Shown one piece after another: positions 7,697 to 21,270 of a stretch of 28,963 nt of DNA. Position 1 is the first letter of the stretch, and every line of letters begins with the position of its first letter. The DNA is from a virus: positions 1 through 28,963 of the IMG/VR virus record IMGVR_UViG_3300020410_000048; one strand, given 5' to 3'. Below the pieces are notes generated by a model. It did no database searches and had not been told where the DNA came from. It saw only the letters and a list, made by a program, of their open reading frames with translations. The translations under genes were made by a program, and so were the position numbers.

Positions 7697-8068
7697 ATGA
7701 GTAAAGAATTTTTATCTGCAGGTGAATTAGATACACCTATAGAAATATATACTAATAGTAGTAGTCAAAATGATTTCGGTGAAATTATTAAATCTAAAAC
7801 ATTATTAAAAACTATATGGGCAAAATTAATGACTACAGGTACTAAAGGAAACGAAAAAACAGAAGATGATACAATAAGAGCAGAGAATAAAATGAATTTT
7901 TTAGTGAGATATGATGCAGATCTACAGATAGATAGTAGTACTATATCACCTCCTGATTATTTTGTAGTTAAGTATTTGAGTAAATTTTGGGATATAATCA
8001 GTATGGAGTATATGGGTAGAGGTAAGGGAGTAGTAATTAGATGTAAATATACTGATAATAATTTATAA
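7697..8068 (+). CDS. Head closure / head-tail joining protein
   Basis: A 123-residue protein matching the Phage_H_T_join type (SPP1 gp16-like): the start GELDTPIEIYT, the IWAKLMTTGTKGNE segment, and the C-terminal YFVVKYLSKFWDIISMEYMGRGKGVVIRCK strand pattern. It should form the ring that seals DNA in the capsid and meets the tail. It starts 2 nt after the previous gene and its TAA overlaps the next ATG by one base. Confidence 0.8.
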   Translation: MSKEFLSAGELDTPIEIYTNSSSQNDFGEIIKSKTLLKTIWAKLMTTGTKGNEKTEDDTIRAENKMNFLVRYDADLQIDSSTISPPDYFVVKYLSKFWDIISMEYMGRGKGVVIRCKYTDNNL

Positions 8069-8520
8069 TGAGTGCAACACATACTAATAGGGCAGTAGAA
8101 TTAAGTATAGATAAAAAAGATATGAGATCCTTAATACAGGGATTAGATCGTATTAAGGATAAATTTTCTGAAAAAAGAGCAAATACAGAAATAAATAAAA
8201 TAGTATTTAATGCGGCAAAACCTATGATGGTAGTAATGAAATCTCTTGCAACAGAAGATGAAACTAAAGTATTAAAAAAATCTATAGGTAGATGGAGGAC
8301 AAAAAGTGGTGTGAGAGTAGGTGCAAGATATAGACAAAAAGACAAAAATAAAGGGTGGTATGTGCATTTAGCGGCATATACACATAAAACAAGAGGTGAT
8401 ACAATGACTACCAAAAGTAATCCATTTTTATCAGATGCATTTGAAAGTACAAAAGGTATAACTGCAAAACTAATTATAGATGGAGTATCTAAATTAGTTG
8501 GTAAATTTTGGATGAGATAG
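8068..8520 (+). CDS. HK97 gp10-like tail/neck protein
   Basis: A 150-residue basic protein. The order after head closure and before the tail terminator, plus the pattern of an N-terminal helix (MRSLIQGLDRIKDKF), a central VVMKSLATEDETKVLKKSIGRW and a C-terminal NPFLSDAFESTKG, matches the HK97 gp10-like family of neck proteins. It shares a TAATG overlap with the head closure gene and ends immediately before the next start. Confidence 0.7.
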   Translation: MSATHTNRAVELSIDKKDMRSLIQGLDRIKDKFSEKRANTEINKIVFNAAKPMMVVMKSLATEDETKVLKKSIGRWRTKSGVRVGARYRQKDKNKGWYVHLAAYTHKTRGDTMTTKSNPFLSDAFESTKGITAKLIIDGVSKLVGKFWMR

Positions 8521-10035
8521 ATGGTAGGTCAAGCAATTAAATGGATGTTAATAGGGTATGGATCAGATGGTTATAATCCACAATATGATATATATAATAT
8601 AGTGGGTAATAATGTCTATCCTAATGTAGTACCTCAAAATGTTGGATTACCTGCAATAGTTTATAGAGTAGATAAAACTGATCCTGATAAAGTAAAAGAA
8701 GTAAGGGCATTAGATAATAGAGTATATGTAGAAATAGATGTAAAAGATAAATCATATTCAGTAGTCAATCAATTATCTACATTAATTATTAATCAATTAC
8801 ATAGATACAATAATACATTTAATAGTAATGATAGTGATAGTATAGGATATGGTACTAATGAAGGATCTAATCAATATGGTAAATTTGCACCTGCATCTAC
8901 AGGTACTACTCAATATGTAGGAGGAATACAAATTACATATTTAAGGTTTGAAAATTTAGTAGAAACTTATGATAAAAAATTAGATGTATATAATAATACT
9001 TTGACTTTTGAATTAGTGTATATAGATGATTTATCAGTATTAGGTGCAGATGTATATGTGAAGCTCACAGATTTAAATTTGATGAGTACTAATATAAATT
9101 CTACTGATGATCCATTATATACACAACCTATATCATTAAATCAGGGAGTAAATTATTTATTTACACCATCAGTATTATCATCAGATAATGCAGATATTAC
9201 TGATAATACATTAGATGGTATATATGAAAATTGGTATGATCCATCAGGTACAAGTAATACTAATAGACCTACTTTAAAACAAAGTGCAGACAATCCCCCT
9301 ATATATAATGAAAATAATTATTTAGAATTTAGTACTAATAATTTTTTATTATCATCAAAAGCATCAGATAGAATAAATAGAAAATATAAAAGGATGACTA
9401 TGTTTGGTGTATTTGAGATGCCTAATTCAGATACAGGTGCAGATGGTACAAAAAATATATCCTCATTTTTATTTAAAAAAAGTACTACTACAGATAATGT
9501 TTGTGGTATATATACAAAGGTAAATGTAGTAAATAATGCGTCAGGATTAATACAATATGAAGTAATAGGTACTGCATTAGAAGATGATGGATCAGGGGGT
9601 ACACAGATTAGAGGTTTTAGTATATCATTAGTTACAAAATGGGCAATGTTCGGTATTAACACTACATATAGTTGGGAAAAACCTACATATGTTTCAGTAA
9701 GTTATGATAAAACTGCACCTAATGTAGTAGGAGGTGAATTTGAATTAATTTTATCTAATGATTTTACAATGTATGGTGATAAAGATAATTTTGGATCATG
9801 GTCTGATACTGCATCTACATCATTTGCAAGTGGTTTATTTAATTTTGAAACATTAGCAAGTGATGTAACTAATTATGATACAAGAGGTGCAGGTATTATA
9901 GATGCAAATTACTCTATTAATATATATGATTTTGCATGTTTTTCTGAAAAAATGACATTTGGATCTAATAGATATAATCAGGTAAAAAGACAAATAATAG
10001 AAAAACATAATATGTTAAAAAGGATTACAAATTGA
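8521..10035 (+). CDS. Tail terminator (DUF3168-like) fused to lectin-like domain, copy A
   Basis: A 504-residue protein, about three times the usual length of a tail terminator. Residues 1 to about 170 carry the DUF3168/gp17-like pattern: a helix, then NNVYPNVVPQNVGLPAIVYRV, RVYVEIDVKDKSYSVVNQLS, and a final NTLTFELVY strand. Residues about 180-500 look like a concanavalin A/LamG-like jelly roll: IYENWYDPSG, then an NYLEFSTNNFLL strand, MTMFGVFEMPN, and a closing SINIYDFACFSEKMTF plus helix. The N-terminal part should cap the head-proximal end of the tail tube; the extra domain would project at the neck and may bind glycans. The next gene has the same layout. Fold of the second half is inferred from pattern only. 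Confidence 0.7.
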   Translation: MVGQAIKWMLIGYGSDGYNPQYDIYNIVGNNVYPNVVPQNVGLPAIVYRVDKTDPDKVKEVRALDNRVYVEIDVKDKSYSVVNQLSTLIINQLHRYNNTFNSNDSDSIGYGTNEGSNQYGKFAPASTGTTQYVGGIQITYLRFENLVETYDKKLDVYNNTLTFELVYIDDLSVLGADVYVKLTDLNLMSTNINSTDDPLYTQPISLNQGVNYLFTPSVLSSDNADITDNTLDGIYENWYDPSGTSNTNRPTLKQSADNPPIYNENNYLEFSTNNFLLSSKASDRINRKYKRMTMFGVFEMPNSDTGADGTKNISSFLFKKSTTTDNVCGIYTKVNVVNNASGLIQYEVIGTALEDDGSGGTQIRGFSISLVTKWAMFGINTTYSWEKPTYVSVSYDKTAPNVVGGEFELILSNDFTMYGDKDNFGSWSDTASTSFASGLFNFETLASDVTNYDTRGAGIIDANYSINIYDFACFSEKMTFGSNRYNQVKRQIIEKHNMLKRITN

Positions 10036-11489
10036 TAGGTAAAGCAGTACACATATTACTAACAGATAAAATTAAAGAAATTGCAACAGGTGAAGTATAT
10101 CCTGTAGTGATGCCTCAAAATGCAAATTTTAATTTAAATAATTTATCTAAATCTAATTATCCTGCAGTAATATATAATGTGTTTACTGAATATGAAACAT
10201 CAAAAGATCAACTACCTAATATAATCTATAGTAGATTAATGATACATGTAGTATCTAATTCATATAAAAGTACAGATACATTAAGTAAAAAAATTAGAGA
10301 TGTATTAGATCACTATGAAGATAAAAGTGCAAAAGGTTTAGTAAATGTACCATCATATAAAGATGGAGGTAATTTACACAATTTTATTAATAATGTAGAA
10401 ATATCTAAAATCTTCTATAATGAGGAGGAGGATGATTATTTAGAAAAATTAGATCTATATACGAGAAAAATAGAATATGATGTATATTATTTTGATAATG
10501 TTTTAAAATTTAGTTATGATTTAAAAAATTCAGATAATCTAACCCCTACTAATCCTCTATGTTTAAATTTTGATTTTACACAAAATTTATTAATGAGAGA
10601 AAATACTGCAGGTGTACCTAATTATTATTCAATACCTGATAATATGGATGGTGCAGATTTTATATTTAATAAATTAGGCAAAGTAAAATTAATAGAAGAT
10701 AAAGGAGTAAATGGTAAAGAATTACAAAACTATAAAGAATATATAAAATCTCCTGATGGTTTTACTTTATCACCTATATATAAAGATAATCCAAGATGTA
10801 TAGAATTTGTTGGATCTAAAAGTATAGAAATGGAAAATGAAGGATCATCATCATTATTATCTGATAAAATACCTTTACCCTATGGTGCAATGTTTATATA
10901 TGTATATAGACCACTATATACAGGAGGTGAGAATTATTTATCAGGAGATAATGGTGAAGCAGGAGATTTAGCACCCATGTTATTATCACATAAAAAAATA
11001 GGTAATGATATTACAATTCATTTTAATCCTAATGGAGGATCATTTAGTGGATCAAGAGTAATAACATTATTTACAACTTCTGATCCTACACAGGGAATAA
11101 ATTATTGGAATGCAGATTATCATTTTTTATGTGTATCTTTGGGGGGTAGTAAACAATATACAGGAGGCACATATAATCAGAGTGGATGGTTTGAGTATTT
11201 TAATAGTAATTATAATCCTAAACTTACTACAGGACAGATAATAAAAAATAATTCATTTACAGGTAATACTGATAATATGAGTGATGGTACAGGTAATAAT
11301 TTTACATTTAGTAGAATAGGATCAGGTACATCATCTGCAGGTTTTAGGATGTATGAACTTTTATTATTTATACCTAATGAGAAAAAAACACATGGAATAG
11401 ATGCAGATGCACCTCCATTTCAACCTACAGATATTATATACAAAAAAGTAAAAGAATATATATATAATAAATATACAACTTTAAAATAA
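10032..11489 (+). CDS. Tail terminator (DUF3168-like) fused to lectin-like domain, copy B
   Basis: A 485-residue relative of the preceding gene. The N-terminal 155 residues repeat the DUF3168 layout (MIGKAVHILLTDKIKEIATGEVYPVVMPQN, NYPAVIYNVF, SRLMIHVVSNSYKSTDTLSKKI, IEYDVYYFD). The remaining 330 residues are again beta-rich, with CIEFVGSKSIEM, AMFIYVYRP, a Gly/Ser-rich middle, and a closing FRMYELLLFIP followed by a helix ending KEYIYNKY, the usual end of LamG/ConA-like modules. The start is TTG at 10032 overlapping the preceding TGA; no ATG lies nearby. Sequence identity between A and B is low by eye, so the duplication is old or the C-terminal halves were swapped. Confidence 0.68.
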   Translation: MIGKAVHILLTDKIKEIATGEVYPVVMPQNANFNLNNLSKSNYPAVIYNVFTEYETSKDQLPNIIYSRLMIHVVSNSYKSTDTLSKKIRDVLDHYEDKSAKGLVNVPSYKDGGNLHNFINNVEISKIFYNEEEDDYLEKLDLYTRKIEYDVYYFDNVLKFSYDLKNSDNLTPTNPLCLNFDFTQNLLMRENTAGVPNYYSIPDNMDGADFIFNKLGKVKLIEDKGVNGKELQNYKEYIKSPDGFTLSPIYKDNPRCIEFVGSKSIEMENEGSSSLLSDKIPLPYGAMFIYVYRPLYTGGENYLSGDNGEAGDLAPMLLSHKKIGNDITIHFNPNGGSFSGSRVITLFTTSDPTQGINYWNADYHFLCVSLGGSKQYTGGTYNQSGWFEYFNSNYNPKLTTGQIIKNNSFTGNTDNMSDGTGNNFTFSRIGSGTSSAGFRMYELLLFIPNEKKTHGIDADAPPFQPTDIIYKKVKEYIYNKYTTLK

Positions 11490-11495
11490 TGAGAT

Positions 11496-11684
11496 ATGGA
11501 ATATAAACCTACTTTAATTAAAAATAAATTACCTAATGTCAAAGGAGAAAAATTTGGGCCTATTGATGAAGATACATATATAACTTTATTTAATAATGGA
11601 TATATAGATGATGAATATGGTATTATAAAAAAGAAAAAAAAGAATACAAAAAAAGATAAAGAGGAAACATTAGATAAAGAATAA
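11496..11684 (+). CDS. Small charged protein of unknown function in tail operon
   Basis: A 62-residue ORF that begins MEYKPTLIKNKLPNVKGEKF and ends in a Lys/Glu-rich tail (IIKKKKKNTKKDKEETLDKE). It contains no membrane segment or known motif. It fills the gap between tail terminator B and the first tail-tube gene and follows the same strand. The A-rich tail contains homopolymer runs but I see no reason to propose a frameshift into the next gene. I do not recognise a family. Confidence 0.5.
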   Translation: MEYKPTLIKNKLPNVKGEKFGPIDEDTYITLFNNGYIDDEYGIIKKKKKNTKKDKEETLDKE

Positions 11685-11709: not shown

Positions 11710-12165
11710 ATGGCGACAATAATTAATGGAACAAATATGGTAATTTCTGTTGATGAGAGTACATCACCATCTGCAGGTGGATTAACTGCAATTGCGGCGG
11801 CGACTTCATGCAGTTGTCAAATCACAATAGATGCAGGTGAGGTTACAGATAAATCATCAGGAGATCGTAAAGAGTTTGTAGGTTTATCTTCATCATGGAC
11901 TATTGATGCAGAAGCATTTTATAGTGAAGATGGATCAGGTGTACCTGATTTAAATAGTTTACTACCTGCGGCTTATGGTGATGCAAATGCATCTCAAAAT
12001 GGAGTTGCACAATATCCAAGAGAGGTAATGGTAAGATTTACAGGGGGTACTGATACATATACAGGTACAGGATATATTACTTCATTATCTGCATCAGGTG
12101 GTGTGGAAGATGCAGGTACATTATCAATCTCTATACAGGGTACAGGTGATTTAACTATAGCATAA
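11710..12165 (+). CDS. Major tail protein, copy 1 (TP901-1-like)
   Basis: A 151-residue tail-tube subunit. Pattern: MATIINGTNMVISVDE start, then CSCQITIDAGEVTDKSSGDRKEF, SSSWTIDAEAFYS, and a C-terminal GTGYITSLSASGGVEDAGTLSISIQGTGDLT, as expected for the TP901-1-type tube proteins that stack as hexamers around the tape measure protein. The next gene is a clear paralogue of the same length (shared SSWTIDAEAFY and GYITSLS...SISVQG). Location before the chaperone and tape measure genes fits. Confidence 0.85.
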   Translation: MATIINGTNMVISVDESTSPSAGGLTAIAAATSCSCQITIDAGEVTDKSSGDRKEFVGLSSSWTIDAEAFYSEDGSGVPDLNSLLPAAYGDANASQNGVAQYPREVMVRFTGGTDTYTGTGYITSLSASGGVEDAGTLSISIQGTGDLTIA

Positions 12166-12196: not shown

Positions 12197-12652
12197 ATGG
12201 CGGTAAAAGTAATTTCAGGATCATCTTTAATTCTGCAAATGGATCAGAGTAATAATCCTGCATCAGGATCAGAAACATTTACTACATTAGGAGGTAGTAA
12301 TACCTGTAGTGTAAATATAACACAGGAGGCAATAGATACTACTAATAAAGATAGTGGTGGTAGAAAAGCATTTATTAATGGAGTTTCATCATGGACTATA
12401 GATGCAGAGGCATTTTATACAGATGGATCTTCAGATGGTGAAACTATAAGACCTTCTACACTTTATGATGCATTAGATGGTGGATATAGAATTGCAATTA
12501 AATTTTATACTGCAACAGGTCAAACAGGTGCAGTTAAATATACAGGATGGGGATATATAACATCTTTATCAGTTAATGCATCTGTAGGTGAGTGGAGTAG
12601 TTATAGTATTTCTGTACAGGGTGATGGTCAATTAACTAAAGCATCTGTATAG
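12197..12652 (+). CDS. Major tail protein, copy 2 (TP901-1-like)
   Basis: A 151-residue paralogue of the preceding tube protein. It shares the VSSWTIDAEAFYTDG core and the C-terminal GWGYITSLSVNASVGEWSSYSISVQGDGQLT block, with a diverged middle. Both copies keep the full fold pattern and neither looks decayed, so both are probably used. Possible roles are alternating subunits of a mixed tube, a specialised ring at one end, or a tube protein and a decoration protein. It is followed by a 53-nt gap with an AT-rich hairpin. Confidence 0.83.
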   Translation: MAVKVISGSSLILQMDQSNNPASGSETFTTLGGSNTCSVNITQEAIDTTNKDSGGRKAFINGVSSWTIDAEAFYTDGSSDGETIRPSTLYDALDGGYRIAIKFYTATGQTGAVKYTGWGYITSLSVNASVGEWSSYSISVQGDGQLTKASV

Positions 12653-16046: not shown

Positions 16047-18767
16047 GTGGCTTATAAAAAATATCAATGTAGATTTTATTCTGAAAATAAAGTAGGAGGT
16101 GCATATGTTTCACCTCCTTCTGCAGATCCTAATCAACAAAGATGGGAGATTGCAATATGGAAGGAAACAGGATCAGGTAGTACAACAGATTTTAAATGTA
16201 CATCATCTGCATTTACTTTAAAAATGGATGGTGGTGATGATAATTTAGCATCACCAATAAAAACTACTTCTGTAGAGTTTGATATGATTTTAGAAACTGC
16301 ATCACAAGAGCAGATAATAGATGATATATTATCAGTTGCAACAGGTAATGAGAATGAGTTTTGGGTGCAGATAGCAATGTATAATACTACTACTTCAACA
16401 TGGGAGAATTTTTGGAGAGGTGTATTATTAGGTGATCTTGTATCTGTGCAGGATGTAGGAATTAATAGAATTATAAAAGTACAGGCAACAGATGGATTAA
16501 CACAATTAAAATATAAATCTTTTGATCCTTCTACTTATGGTGGTTTAAAATCTTGTATGAATTTGATTAAAGTTTGTTTAGGTAGAATTAATCTAATTGC
16601 GGCAAGATATGGAGGATCTGATAGGATGATCGCACATACACCATTTTATTATTGTAAAGCAATGAGTGGAGGATTAACAGGTGCGGCAGGAGTTGATAGT
16701 GATACATGGAGGGAAAATGTTGATCATGATCCATTGTGTTTAACTAATGTAAATACAGAGATATTTAAATATGATGATGGTACATATTGGAGTTATTATG
16801 AGATATTAGAACAAGTTTTATCAACTTTTCAACTTCGTATAATGATGACAATGATAGAAGATGATGCAGGTAATGTAGGCCCTATGTGGTTATTACAATC
16901 TCCATTTGTATATCATGATTATAGTGGTAATCAAGATACAGATAATTTAACTTTTTTTCATCCTAATAATTTGACTACTGAAAGTGCATCAGGATATAAA
17001 GCAACATTTAGTACAAAATTAGTTAATCCTGCAGAGAGATTATCAGGAGGTATTACTACCTATTTACCTCCATTAAAACAATATAAAACAATCTACAATC
17101 ATAAAATAATGCAGAATTTAGCATTAGGCCCTTTATCATTTAATTCATCTGAATATAATGATGCTAACCTTACTGATTTAACTGATCATTATATTAATAC
17201 TCCTACTAATGGTTTTGTGTATAATTTATCTAAAAATACTGAAGATACACAGGTAGTAGGTTTTGGAGGTTTTGCAGAAAATTCTAATACTACTATACTA
17301 ATTACAGGGGATCTTGAATACTATCCTGAAGTATGGAGTGCATGGGATTGGTTTGAAGAAAATAATTTATCTGTAAGTTTTGGTAATATAACTAATGTTG
17401 CATGGTTAGATCAATTAGTATTTGCGAGGATGGGATTAATGGTAAGTAGTAGGAGTGAGTTTGTATCAGATGGTACACCTTCTATTTTTTATAATTACTA
17501 TTGGTATGGGATGAGTAGATTTGGTATTGCGGCAGGATCAATAGGGTGGATAGGCCCATCAGAAACATTAAATGGATCATATCCTGCATATTGGAATATC
17601 ACATATCCTGCAGTATGGTCTTATACTGAATTAGATACAGGTAATACTATATATCCATATGGTACTGATACAGGTGTAGATGGTGGATATTGGTATTCAA
17701 CTGCACAGACCATTGGTGCAATGGATCATTGGGCATGGTTTTCACCACATTTTCATCAAGTTGGAGGTAATAATGGTATGGTTTTAGGTAGTGCAGGTAG
17801 TGGTACAGATGAAAGTACATTTAATACAATGTGGAGTAATTATAATTATCAAAATGGATTGAGTACAGGCACAATATCATTTAGTAAAATTACACCATAT
17901 GTACCTATAGTAGGTGATCAATATGGTTTTGTGCCTACTACAGGAGGTTTTATACAAACATTGAGATTATATTATGCATTTAAAAGAGATAAATGGTACA
18001 CAGGAGATACTACAGGTGGTGGTAGTAACATTAGTAGATATTTATGTCATTTAGATTGGAGTAATCAGGGTGAAGCAGAGCATAAAAATAGAGGTATAGG
18101 TTTTGGATATAATCTAAATAATGTCAGGGTATATTTATTAGGTAATCAAAATGAGCAGGATGGATATTTTGATTATTCTATAGGATATTTTGAAAATAAT
18201 AATGGTACTCCATCAGAGAGTGAAACACAAGATCCTGAAATAATAATAGGTGATCAACCTGATTTTGATGCATCACAAAATTATGTGGGTACTGATAATA
18301 TAGGTGTATCACCTACTTATTTTGGTCAGTTTTGGATAACTAATACTAATGGTATTACATCACCTTCTTTACCTTATTATACAGGAGTAGATACAACAAG
18401 ATGGATATGCACATGGGAAAGTGATAATAGTGGTAATTGGTTAAAACTGCATGAAAAAAGATGTAAGATGCAGGTAACACATCATTATAAATTAAAAGAA
18501 AAATTAGATTTATTATTTAAAGATAGATCACCTACTACTTCATATGCAACTGATTTTAAAATGACTAAATATGGTTTTAGTGCAATATATAATTGGTATG
18601 GTGCAGGTAGTACAGAAAATACTACATGGATAGATAATTTATATATGGTATCAGGGGGTGAATTTATTGCAGGTACAATGGAATGGAAAGTACAATTAGT
18701 AGATTGTTTGACATTTTCACAAAGTAATATAGTAAACAATTCATATAGTAGTAATAATACTGATTAA
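16047..18767 (+). CDS. Large tail tip / baseplate protein
   Basis: A 906-residue protein directly after the tape measure region, where distal tail and tip proteins are encoded. The first 170 residues (CRFYSENKVGGAY, RWEIAIWKETGS, VEFDMILETASQEQIIDDILS, WENFWRGVLLGDLVSVQDVGINRIIKVQATDGL) look like a distal-tail/hub domain. The large remainder is rich in Trp, Tyr, Asn and Gly, in keeping with beta-rich tip or receptor-contact modules. The start is GTG at 16047 (Met-Ala-Tyr-Lys-Lys); no suitable ATG is near. No catalytic motif is seen. The exact structural role is inferred from position. Confidence 0.7.
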   Translation: MAYKKYQCRFYSENKVGGAYVSPPSADPNQQRWEIAIWKETGSGSTTDFKCTSSAFTLKMDGGDDNLASPIKTTSVEFDMILETASQEQIIDDILSVATGNENEFWVQIAMYNTTTSTWENFWRGVLLGDLVSVQDVGINRIIKVQATDGLTQLKYKSFDPSTYGGLKSCMNLIKVCLGRINLIAARYGGSDRMIAHTPFYYCKAMSGGLTGAAGVDSDTWRENVDHDPLCLTNVNTEIFKYDDGTYWSYYEILEQVLSTFQLRIMMTMIEDDAGNVGPMWLLQSPFVYHDYSGNQDTDNLTFFHPNNLTTESASGYKATFSTKLVNPAERLSGGITTYLPPLKQYKTIYNHKIMQNLALGPLSFNSSEYNDANLTDLTDHYINTPTNGFVYNLSKNTEDTQVVGFGGFAENSNTTILITGDLEYYPEVWSAWDWFEENNLSVSFGNITNVAWLDQLVFARMGLMVSSRSEFVSDGTPSIFYNYYWYGMSRFGIAAGSIGWIGPSETLNGSYPAYWNITYPAVWSYTELDTGNTIYPYGTDTGVDGGYWYSTAQTIGAMDHWAWFSPHFHQVGGNNGMVLGSAGSGTDESTFNTMWSNYNYQNGLSTGTISFSKITPYVPIVGDQYGFVPTTGGFIQTLRLYYAFKRDKWYTGDTTGGGSNISRYLCHLDWSNQGEAEHKNRGIGFGYNLNNVRVYLLGNQNEQDGYFDYSIGYFENNNGTPSESETQDPEIIIGDQPDFDASQNYVGTDNIGVSPTYFGQFWITNTNGITSPSLPYYTGVDTTRWICTWESDNSGNWLKLHEKRCKMQVTHHYKLKEKLDLLFKDRSPTTSYATDFKMTKYGFSAIYNWYGAGSTENTTWIDNLYMVSGGEFIAGTMEWKVQLVDCLTFSQSNIVNNSYSSNNTD

Positions 18768-19805
18768 ATGGCTATTAATAAAACAGGTAAAAGATTAAGA
18801 GTAAAAAATACTGCAAAAATACCTAAAACATTAGGGGGTAGTTTAAGTGGTAAATATAATGATATTAAGAATATCAAATATAGTAACAACTCATTAGATA
18901 GTAGAAGTGGTCAGGGTATAATAGGTGGTACAGGATCAGGAAGTATTACACATGCAACACCTAATACAGGACAATTAGATAGGGATAAAAATTTAAATTC
19001 ACCTTTTGGAGAATGGTTACGAAAAAATGCATTGACTACTACTTCTAATCCTATTAATGGTGGCGGTGGAACTTCATCTATTGCTATTAATCCCTCTACA
19101 TCAACATCACCTATAAGAGGTAAGGTATTATTTGAAGAACAATTATTTTATATATATGATAGATATACATTTAGATCTTATATATTTCAATGTTCTGCAG
19201 ATGTAGATGCAAGAGATACAACTATAAATATAGTATCTACTACATTAATAAAAAATAAACATAGATTTGCATCAGGATCATATATAATATCTGATTTTAA
19301 AAGATTACAAATTTATGCATTAAATAATGAATTTAGAGTAAATATAAAAAAGGGTAGAGAACTTTATTTAACAAGATTAAGTACTGCAAATCAGTGGGGA
19401 AACACAGGAGGATATTATGTGTTTAATGGTACAGGTACTAATCCATCATTTACATTTAATACTGCATTTAGAAGTGCATTTATTACAATATCAAATGTAT
19501 TTTTAAAATCAATAGATATTGCATATTATACTAATGTATCATGTGATTTAGAATTTAAAGTAGGTTTGATAGTTTGGAGAGATGGTTTTACTACTACTCC
19601 TACTTATGCAGATTTGCCTATGGTAACAGGAACAGATCCATCAGGAACACATACTGCAAATACTCAATATATAAAGACAATAGAATTAACAGGATTAGCA
19701 GGTATTGATACTCAATTAGGGGTAGGTTTATTTGTACGATCTGATACTTCTAATACATTAATATATGGTCATGGTAGTGCATCATTTAAAAATATACCTT
19801 CATGA
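18768..19805 (+). CDS. Tail fibre or tip-associated structural protein
   Basis: A 345-residue protein starting one base after the tail tip stop. Residues 1-110 are basic and rich in Gly, Ser, Asn and Thr with low-complexity linkers (GGTGSGS, NGGGGTSS), likely an extended shaft or anchor. Residues about 125-345 are beta-rich (KVLFEEQLFYIYDRYTF, SYIISDFKRLQIYAL, FRSAFITISNVFLKSIDIAYYTN, LEFKVGLIVWRDG). No family is recognised. Its place between tip gene and another small structural gene with 4-nt overlaps suggests a receptor-contacting part. Confidence 0.55.
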   Translation: MAINKTGKRLRVKNTAKIPKTLGGSLSGKYNDIKNIKYSNNSLDSRSGQGIIGGTGSGSITHATPNTGQLDRDKNLNSPFGEWLRKNALTTTSNPINGGGGTSSIAINPSTSTSPIRGKVLFEEQLFYIYDRYTFRSYIFQCSADVDARDTTINIVSTTLIKNKHRFASGSYIISDFKRLQIYALNNEFRVNIKKGRELYLTRLSTANQWGNTGGYYVFNGTGTNPSFTFNTAFRSAFITISNVFLKSIDIAYYTNVSCDLEFKVGLIVWRDGFTTTPTYADLPMVTGTDPSGTHTANTQYIKTIELTGLAGIDTQLGVGLFVRSDTSNTLIYGHGSASFKNIPS

Positions 19806-20221
19806 GTTTAGAAAATAAAAAATCAGGCATAATACATAGAAAATCAGGAGATGATTTAGATAAAATAAAAAAACATTATGATGATGGTTTAATGTTAGAT
19901 CCTACAGATAGGCCTGATGAATATCCACATCTATCTGCATTAATATATCAAATTGAATTAATGCAACAAGATATAGATGAATTAAGGAGATTTAGTGGTA
20001 CAGAAGAAAATAGAAGGATTACTAATAATACTGATTTAATAGATATAAATACTAAAAATATACCTCCTATTAAAGTATTATTACCTAATTCTAATGATGA
20101 AATAGGTTTACAAGTTGATCAGGGTTTAAGGGGTACTACTTTAATAATTAATTATACTAATGATAAAGGCACATTATACAAAGGGCAGATATTATTAGAA
20201 GAACAAATAAAAAAGAAATGA
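19802..20221 (+). CDS. Coiled-coil virion-associated protein, unknown
   Basis: A 139-residue protein whose ATG overlaps the previous stop (ATGA). Residues about 45-70 (ALIYQIELMQQDIDELRRFSG) form a short predicted coiled coil typical of trimerising fibre segments; the C-terminal half is beta-rich and ends with Lys residues. A fibre chaperone, trimerisation unit or fibre base is possible. No named family is recognised. It overlaps the next gene by 4 nt. Confidence 0.5.
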   Translation: MSLENKKSGIIHRKSGDDLDKIKKHYDDGLMLDPTDRPDEYPHLSALIYQIELMQQDIDELRRFSGTEENRRITNNTDLIDINTKNIPPIKVLLPNSNDEIGLQVDQGLRGTTLIINYTNDKGTLYKGQILLEEQIKKK

Positions 20222-21270
20222 GATCATTATTAGTATTTATATTCTTTGTATTGTTATTGTTTTTTTGCAGTAAATGTAATGCACAATTAGGTGTATTTAA
20301 ATACTCTACTATATATGCATCTGCAGGTTTTAATCAGGTATTAGATGAGGTAAATACATACACTATACAAAATGGAATACTAACAGAAACTACAAAAGAT
20401 AATAAATATAATTATAGATATGCATTAGGTATTAGGAGATTAGCAAGATTATCTATGGAAAATAGAAAATCATATAAAGATGGTACTGAAACTGAATTAG
20501 GTAAATTTAGATCTGCATTGATGAATGGTTTAGAGTATTTAGTATCATATGAAAATGTAAGGGATAGAGGTATTAATTATATTAATCAGGATTATTTTAT
20601 AAGATACATATCTAAAAATTATATTATAAAATTACAAAGTACTAATTTACAGGGCATTGATTTAAAATATAGAGAGTTAGATTTAAGATTAAAAAAAGAT
20701 GTTAAAGATTTTCAATTATCATTAGGCATCTCATATAGATTACATCCTGCATACTCTATTAATCCATTTAGTATTTTTAGTGGTAGTGATTATATAGAAG
20801 TTGCAAATAATTTAGGATATAATAGTGAGTATTATTATTTAGATATGAATAGTAACGGATATTTAGATAGATTTGAGATTTCTGATTATTATTGGTTTAA
20901 TTCTGATGGTGATACTATTGCTAATAGTAATACAGAATTTATGCAGTATCATTATTCAGATATAGTAAATACATATAATAATAATGAAATAAATAAATTA
21001 GGAATACAACATACTATATCATCAGTTATTGGAATTAATTATTATAAGCATAATAATAATAATCATTATTTATTGTGGACTAATATATTACCATATCATT
21101 ATAAACTTACTAAACATGGTTATAATGGATCTGTAGATTATGAAATTGGTGCAATAATACAAAGACCTATTAATAAATTTTTATCTGTATTTACAGAAGG
21201 GGTATATCTAAAGTATTTAGATAGAAGAAATTATAATATAAAAATAGGACTAAACATATTATTAAAATGA
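20218..21270 (+). CDS. Secreted putative outer-membrane beta-barrel protein with EF-hand loop
   Basis: A 350-residue protein with a clear signal peptide: MRS, a hydrophobic run LLVFIFFVLLLFF, then SKCNA-Q, the Bacteroidota signal peptidase I pattern. The mature part shows alternating short strands with aromatic residues (FKYSTIYASAGFNQV, YRYALGIRRLARL, YFIRYISKNYIIKLQS, FQLSLGISYRL) and ends in YNIKIGLNILLK, resembling an outer-membrane barrel. Residues 209-220, DMNSNGYLDRFE, form a canonical EF-hand calcium loop (ligands at 1, 3, 5, 9 and 12, Gly at 6). It sits between tail and endolysin genes. It could alter the host surface, block superinfection or help open the outer membrane. Barrel call is inference. 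Confidence 0.6.
   Translation: MRSLLVFIFFVLLLFFCSKCNAQLGVFKYSTIYASAGFNQVLDEVNTYTIQNGILTETTKDNKYNYRYALGIRRLARLSMENRKSYKDGTETELGKFRSALMNGLEYLVSYENVRDRGINYINQDYFIRYISKNYIIKLQSTNLQGIDLKYRELDLRLKKDVKDFQLSLGISYRLHPAYSINPFSIFSGSDYIEVANNLGYNSEYYYLDMNSNGYLDRFEISDYYWFNSDGDTIANSNTEFMQYHYSDIVNTYNNNEINKLGIQHTISSVIGINYYKHNNNNHYLLWTNILPYHYKLTKHGYNGSVDYEIGAIIQRPINKFLSVFTEGVYLKYLDRRNYNIKIGLNILLK

Follow-up and report, generated by a model that had tools for sequence, protein, structure and literature searches.

The tail terminators of siphophages are normally encoded by one gene of 110-160 aa. For T5 a hexameric terminator ring seated on the last ring of the tube was described, with a C3/pseudo-C6 symmetry like that of the tube (PMC11784142). 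Neck modules have been studied in lactococcal phages, where the 936 neck-passage protein occurs in seven C-terminal classes, with weak binding to host cells demonstrated for one of them, and where the NPS of TP901-1 is non-essential (PMC6669499). In our study we analyzed a stretch of 28,963 bases from an uncultured marine phage (IMG/VR virus record IMGVR_UViG_3300020410_000048), hereafter called the window. Unlike the normal arrangement with a single short gene, TT1 and TT2 of the window are two paralogues in the tail-terminator slot, each of which carries a lectin-type head of about 330 aa. We conclude that the neck of this phage, in addition to the tail tip, is a probable site for the display of sugar-binding domains.

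The window contains a siphophage structural module with terminase, portal, protease, capsid, adaptor, head closure, gp10-like Neck1, TT1 and TT2, followed 3' of TT2 by a small ORF, two tail-tube proteins, two small tail proteins and the tape measure. The upstream neighbour of the pair is the head closure (stopper) protein (7697..8068; PF05521 E 2e-10, phrog_25), and the Neck1 / HK97 gp10-like protein (8068..8520; phrog_5 E 1e-7) lies directly upstream of TT1. TT1 (8521..10035, 504 aa, ATG start) comprises a terminator domain of about aa 1-172 (8521..9036, an approximate boundary taken from the fold match of residues 1-170 and the N-domain tree) and a ConA-like jelly-roll head of about aa 173-504 (9037..10032, fold match of residues 167-503) that ends in a conserved closing helix. 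TT2 (10032..11489, 485 aa, TTG start) is likewise composed of a terminator domain (about aa 1-157) and a ConA-like head (about aa 158-485). Its start overlaps the TT1 stop by 4 nt (10032..10035), and in 13 of the 15 complete pairs the spacing between the two genes is -4 to +1 nt. This overlapping or abutting arrangement makes translational coupling of TT1 and TT2 probable. Downstream follow the small ORF of 62 aa (11496..11684) and the tail-tube paralogues MTP1 (11710..12165; PF06199 E 1.6e-8) and MTP2 (12197..12652; PF06199 E 1.5e-16) with 151 aa each. All of these features are on the + strand. The pair thus sits between Neck1/gp10 and the tail-tube gene, which is the slot of canonical terminators. 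The small ORF gave no match in a Pfam search and is conserved in position, as ORFs of similar size are found there in the loci L002, L005, L031, L035 and L043 and in the single-head relatives L065 and L093. Besides, a cytosine-C5 DNA methylase, of which only profile positions 1-111 were matched, is located at 584-1423 between the genes of the small and large terminase subunits. The large tail-end proteins (906, 345 and 350 aa; window 16047-21270) had no PHROG or Pfam match, and no tail-tip adhesion device was recognised among them with these profiles.

A preliminary description of the window had claimed that both neighbouring genes begin with a terminator domain. In a profile search residues 26-110 of TT1 matched PHROG 347 'tail terminator' (E 4e-7). 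The window TT2 alone gave no match to this profile; its orthologue in L002 did (E 4e-6), and the TT2 N-domain profile was aligned by hhalign to that of the TT1 N-domain (probability 98.8) and to those of the canonical, plain terminators (97.8). Profile comparison therefore recovered a terminator in both N-terminal halves, by PHROG 347 for TT1 and by hhalign for TT2. AlphaFold (AF2) models of the single chains, built on 20 (TT1) and 24 (TT2) window-and-locus sequences, reached a pLDDT of 82.3 and a pTM of 0.82 for TT1 and values of 82.8 and 0.86 for TT2. In VIA-align comparisons the TT1 N-domain matched the terminators of phiXacJX1 (9lbn_K; Z 13.8, rmsd 2.5, 114 aa) and RcGTA (6tba_4A; Z 13.8). 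The TT2 N-domain was closest to the terminator of mycobacteriophage Douge (8zdj_m; Z 13.4), followed by those of RcGTA (6tba_4A; Z 12.8), phiCD508 (9gb5_H; Z 12.5), phiXacJX1 (9lbn_K; Z 12.2) and T5 (Z 11.7). The terminator fold of two helices and a four-stranded sheet lining the lumen is present in both N-domains, in agreement with the terminator assignment of the preliminary description.

The TT1/TT2 pair was found in the same order in 21 further IMG/VR contigs, some of them cut by the contig end, and no loss of TT1 or TT2 was observed among the paired loci extending far enough. Since the layout is conserved in these contigs, the pair is neither a chance arrangement nor an assembly artefact, and the two ORFs stand with the positions and lengths first read from the window. 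In a tree of the N-domains based on the non-identical complete members (20 TT1 and 17 TT2) both proteins form separate clades with support of 100/98 and 100/100. Sisterhood of TT1 and TT2 could not be taken as proven: the free tree groups TT1 with the single-head terminators described below (91/60), and a tree forcing TT1 and TT2 together was not rejected (AU p 0.756). The distances of the TT1 and TT2 N-domains correlated with 0.71 after background removal in nine taxa, which is among the highest values between different genes. This is suggestive of coevolution, and linkage alone can yield the same value. Among the INPHARED phages, tblastn at E 0.1 gave no match for TT1, TT2 or a single-head terminator, and therefore we know of neither a cultured relative nor a host. 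Genome-contig scans with the TT2 and tube-protein alignments also remained without matches, and a PDB sequence profile search revealed nothing useful.

A parallel duplication is seen in the tail tube. Every TT1/TT2 locus that reaches the tube genes carries two paralogous tube proteins, and in a tree of 22 pairs MTP1 and MTP2 are each monophyletic. MTP1 has a short middle insertion at about residues 90-103 that is absent from MTP2. The terminator and tube duplications mark one clade, that of the window. Strict coupling of both duplications was rejected, as a single terminator goes along with two tube genes in L200 and the partial locus L193, and with a second tube-like ORF in L104. In L200 (2817-3757) and L193 (3281-4114, second copy cut by the contig end) the duplicated tube gene accompanies a single LamG-headed terminator. 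In L104 (2210-3067), a phage with a canonical terminator, the tube gene is directly followed by this tube-like ORF, which is very divergent. JBD30 was dismissed as a precedent for 'two major tail proteins', since the phrase refers there to two copies of one protein.

We propose that the terminator domains of TT1 and TT2 would form a hexameric ring that caps the tube beneath the head-closure protein. Because of the gene slot and the terminator fold, we infer that the heads would stick out around the neck. Their role there would be an auxiliary binding of polysaccharide, either extracellular or on the host surface, for a loose capture before the tail tip binds, and by analogy with the lactococcal neck modules this binding would be of low affinity and high avidity. 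For this model as a whole, with duplicated headed terminators, a hexameric neck ring, auxiliary lectin heads and perhaps a 3+3 arrangement, we estimate a probability of about 0.58. A mixed A/B ring, which the preliminary description had already considered, is plausible in view of the co-retention of both genes, their overlap and the tube duplication in the same clade. A 3+3 ring of TT1 and TT2 matching an MTP1/MTP2 tube would be the most economical assembly, and the paired genes could give a T5-like pseudo-sixfold symmetry with separate chains. Our more specific picture of such a ring on a two-protein tube, with alternating paralogues in both and with two head types, one of them having a conserved site and the other being variable, each displayed threefold at the capsid-tail junction, is tentative and we would place it clearly below even odds.

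An alternative that concerns the arrangement and not the domains is a division of labour without mixing, in which either TT1 or TT2 would make up the terminator ring, while its paralogue would form a further ring stacked on it or a collar around it. This is a serious possibility and falls only slightly short of even odds. In its favour, the two N-domain profiles share only about 26% identity, and the stem branches leading to them in the tree are long. The heads also differ in conservation, with a variable middle part in TT1 and a conserved distal half in TT2. Against separate rings, both N-domains have kept the full terminator fold, the abutting or overlapping genes suggest a similar output, and the parallel pair of tube proteins is most simply explained by pseudo-sixfold rings.

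Regarding the C-terminal domains, a resemblance to ConA/LamG modules had been suggested from strand spacing and the closing helix. Structure prediction and fold search found a jelly roll in each of the two halves. Both domains are concanavalin-A-like (AlphaFold models, Z 14-17), so that this part of the preliminary description was borne out. The best solved match of both heads was chain 9vyh_p of the cyanopodophage Pan3 (TT1: Z 15.4, rmsd 3.8, 236 aa; TT2: Z 17.3, 246 residues), which is a tailspike and not a terminator. Second were GH54 arabinofuranosidases (1wd3) with Z 14.1 for TT1 and 14.7 for TT2, and further matches comprised clostridial neurotoxin HcN domains and domain 4 of the GH43 AbnA. 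Since these matches are at 5-15% identity (9-11% for the Pan3 chain), they assign a fold and not a specificity. A toxin reading of the HcN matches was rejected, as they reflect a generic ConA-like jelly roll, with identities of 5-10% and of up to 15% in related non-toxic proteins. By sequence, the Pfam lectin families including Laminin_G_3 (PF13385) gave no match at E 1 for the window TT1 or TT2. This counts against the lectin reading, and a jelly roll by itself does not demonstrate that sugar is bound.

The origin of the heads can be followed in outgroups, which were gathered via scans with head-closure and tube-protein alignments and of which every locus was profile-annotated. The plain state, found in most of L103-L140, is one terminator of about 133-156 aa (typically about 136) and one tube gene. 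In the single-head state (L061-L070 and L089-L102) the terminator, still a single gene, has about 400 aa and carries a homologous head of about 250 aa, again with one tube gene. In the window clade the headed terminator and the tube gene are each present twice. Homology to the head of the single-head relatives was found for that of TT1 (hhalign 98.9) as well as for that of TT2 (96.6). The ancestor of TT1 and TT2 would accordingly be a terminator that already had a C-terminal ConA-like head, and this two-domain gene would then have been duplicated in tandem in a lineage with a duplicated tail-tube gene.

In the single-head group, pairs of loci such as L064/L065 share terminator halves that are 93-95% identical (95% in L064/L065) with heads that are 42% identical. 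In DNA alignments about 80-97% of the positions are identical as far as the domain boundary. Over the head the value drops to 38-62%, with sharp edges, and at the closing helix and the tube gene it is again about 80-95%. As judged from these alignments, this is a block replacement as in host-recognition modules, the heads being swapped as cassettes. In the window clade the contrast between both halves is milder than in the single-head group, with a mean identity of 0.53 in the N-terminal vs 0.45 in the C-terminal part of TT1 and of 0.51 vs 0.46 in TT2.

A second type of headed terminator was revealed by the IMG/VR scan. These LamG-headed terminators (L154-L207), an abundant marine group, have 360-364 aa and are represented by 41 distinct complete proteins. 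Four members were tested, and they matched PF11367 tail completion with E 3e-8 to 2e-10, above the cut-off, and PF13385 Laminin_G_3 with E 2e-21 to 1e-27. In this group the N-terminal halves have a mean identity of 91% vs 68% for the heads, and N exceeds C in 99.8% of the pairs. No detectable homology was found between the LamG heads and the window-type heads (hhalign probability <=3). The LamG head was likely gained independently of the window-type head; this case rests on the lack of detectable homology between the heads and not on the tree. In the tree of the terminator domains the LamG-headed group joins the plain terminators (99/98), and a constraint to one head-bearing clade was not rejected (AU p 0.49). 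That a lectin-type head occurs again at this position is our strongest evidence that the terminator C-terminus may be a favoured display site. Taken with the fold and the cassette exchange in relatives, this LamG head at the same place elsewhere makes sugar binding by the TT1 and TT2 heads likely by analogy.

The conservation of the TT2 head bears on a structural explanation, in which the heads would brace the neck and pack against the vertex of the capsid or the first ring of the tube, without any binding of host sugars. In TT2 the distal half of the head is exceptionally conserved, more than the terminator domain, and is the most conserved part of the protein, whereas the proximal part of the head is the least conserved (mean pairwise identity of 0.67-0.79 in the distal blocks vs 0.16-0.30 for aa 181-280). 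The most conserved stretch, aa 363-404 (YHFL...GWFEYFNSNYNPKLTTGQI; 11118..11243, + strand), shows invariant columns in 24 sequences. This conservation may point to a fixed ligand or to a structural contact; as a pattern it is unlike a fast-changing adhesin and counts against the adhesin reading. Moreover, C-terminal extensions are used structurally in solved myophage terminators such as gp53 of phiCD508, which holds the sheath (PMC11948020). However, braces would be expected to be conserved, and in the single-head and LamG-headed relatives the ring domain changes much more slowly than the head, which is replaced en bloc. Besides, a lectin-type head unrelated in sequence occupies the same site elsewhere. 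We therefore regard purely structural heads as unlikely. The GH54 matches at Z 14-15 would speak for heads that are enzymes, namely glycan depolymerases of the ConA-like glycoside hydrolase type instead of passive lectins. This is improbable, since many non-catalytic lectins and binding domains belong to the same fold space, and no glycoside hydrolase family of Pfam was matched by the sequences of the window heads.

With auxiliary lectin heads on a terminator ring as the preferred reading, the tail terminator, usually treated as a plain structural cap, appears to be used repeatedly by marine siphophages to mount lectin-type heads. Such heads may have been acquired on more than one occasion and exchanged in the manner of receptor-binding cassettes, and their position at the neck implies a testable second site of host contact at a distance from the tail tip. 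With terminator and tube both duplicated in one clade, there is further a natural case in which to ask whether two alternating subunits can build a sixfold tail.

The preliminary description had called the neck an unusual place for an adhesin. There is precedent in the lactococcal 936 phages, where the module is part of a separate neck-passage protein (PMC6669499); for a fusion to the terminator no description was found. In the open-access titles and abstracts searched, no terminator or tail completion protein fused to a LamG, lectin, carbohydrate-binding or ConA domain was reported. The PHROG 347 profile has 394 positions, and therefore extended terminators are probably already present in databases, unremarked. 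Neck sugar-binding modules as such are already known, and the fusion to the terminator would be the new element. With the NPS of the lactococcal 936/P335 phages, TT1 and TT2 have in common probable sugar-binding modules at the neck and a constant N-terminal part with exchangeable C-terminal classes. The NPS, however, is a collar protein of its own, in which a BppU-like ring domain is often combined with a coiled-coil stalk (PMC6669499), whereas here the module is fused to the terminator, and the N-domain of TT1 and TT2 is a tail terminator and not a BppU-like beta-sandwich. Gp53 of phiCD508 is similar in having a functional C-terminal extension outside the ring; this extension is a linker and a strand holding the contractile sheath (PMC11948020), in contrast to the jelly-roll head described here. 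T5 with pb6 and p142 shares the duplicated tube domain and a pseudo-sixfold tube under a terminator ring (PMC11784142). However, in T5 the two tube domains are fused in one chain and there is one terminator gene, whereas the window phage has separate paralogous pairs, MTP1 and MTP2 being individual genes. With the canonical siphophage terminators (lambda gpU, T5 p142, RcGTA; PHROG 347 / PF11367), TT1 and TT2 share the fold, the gene slot and the N-domain profile.
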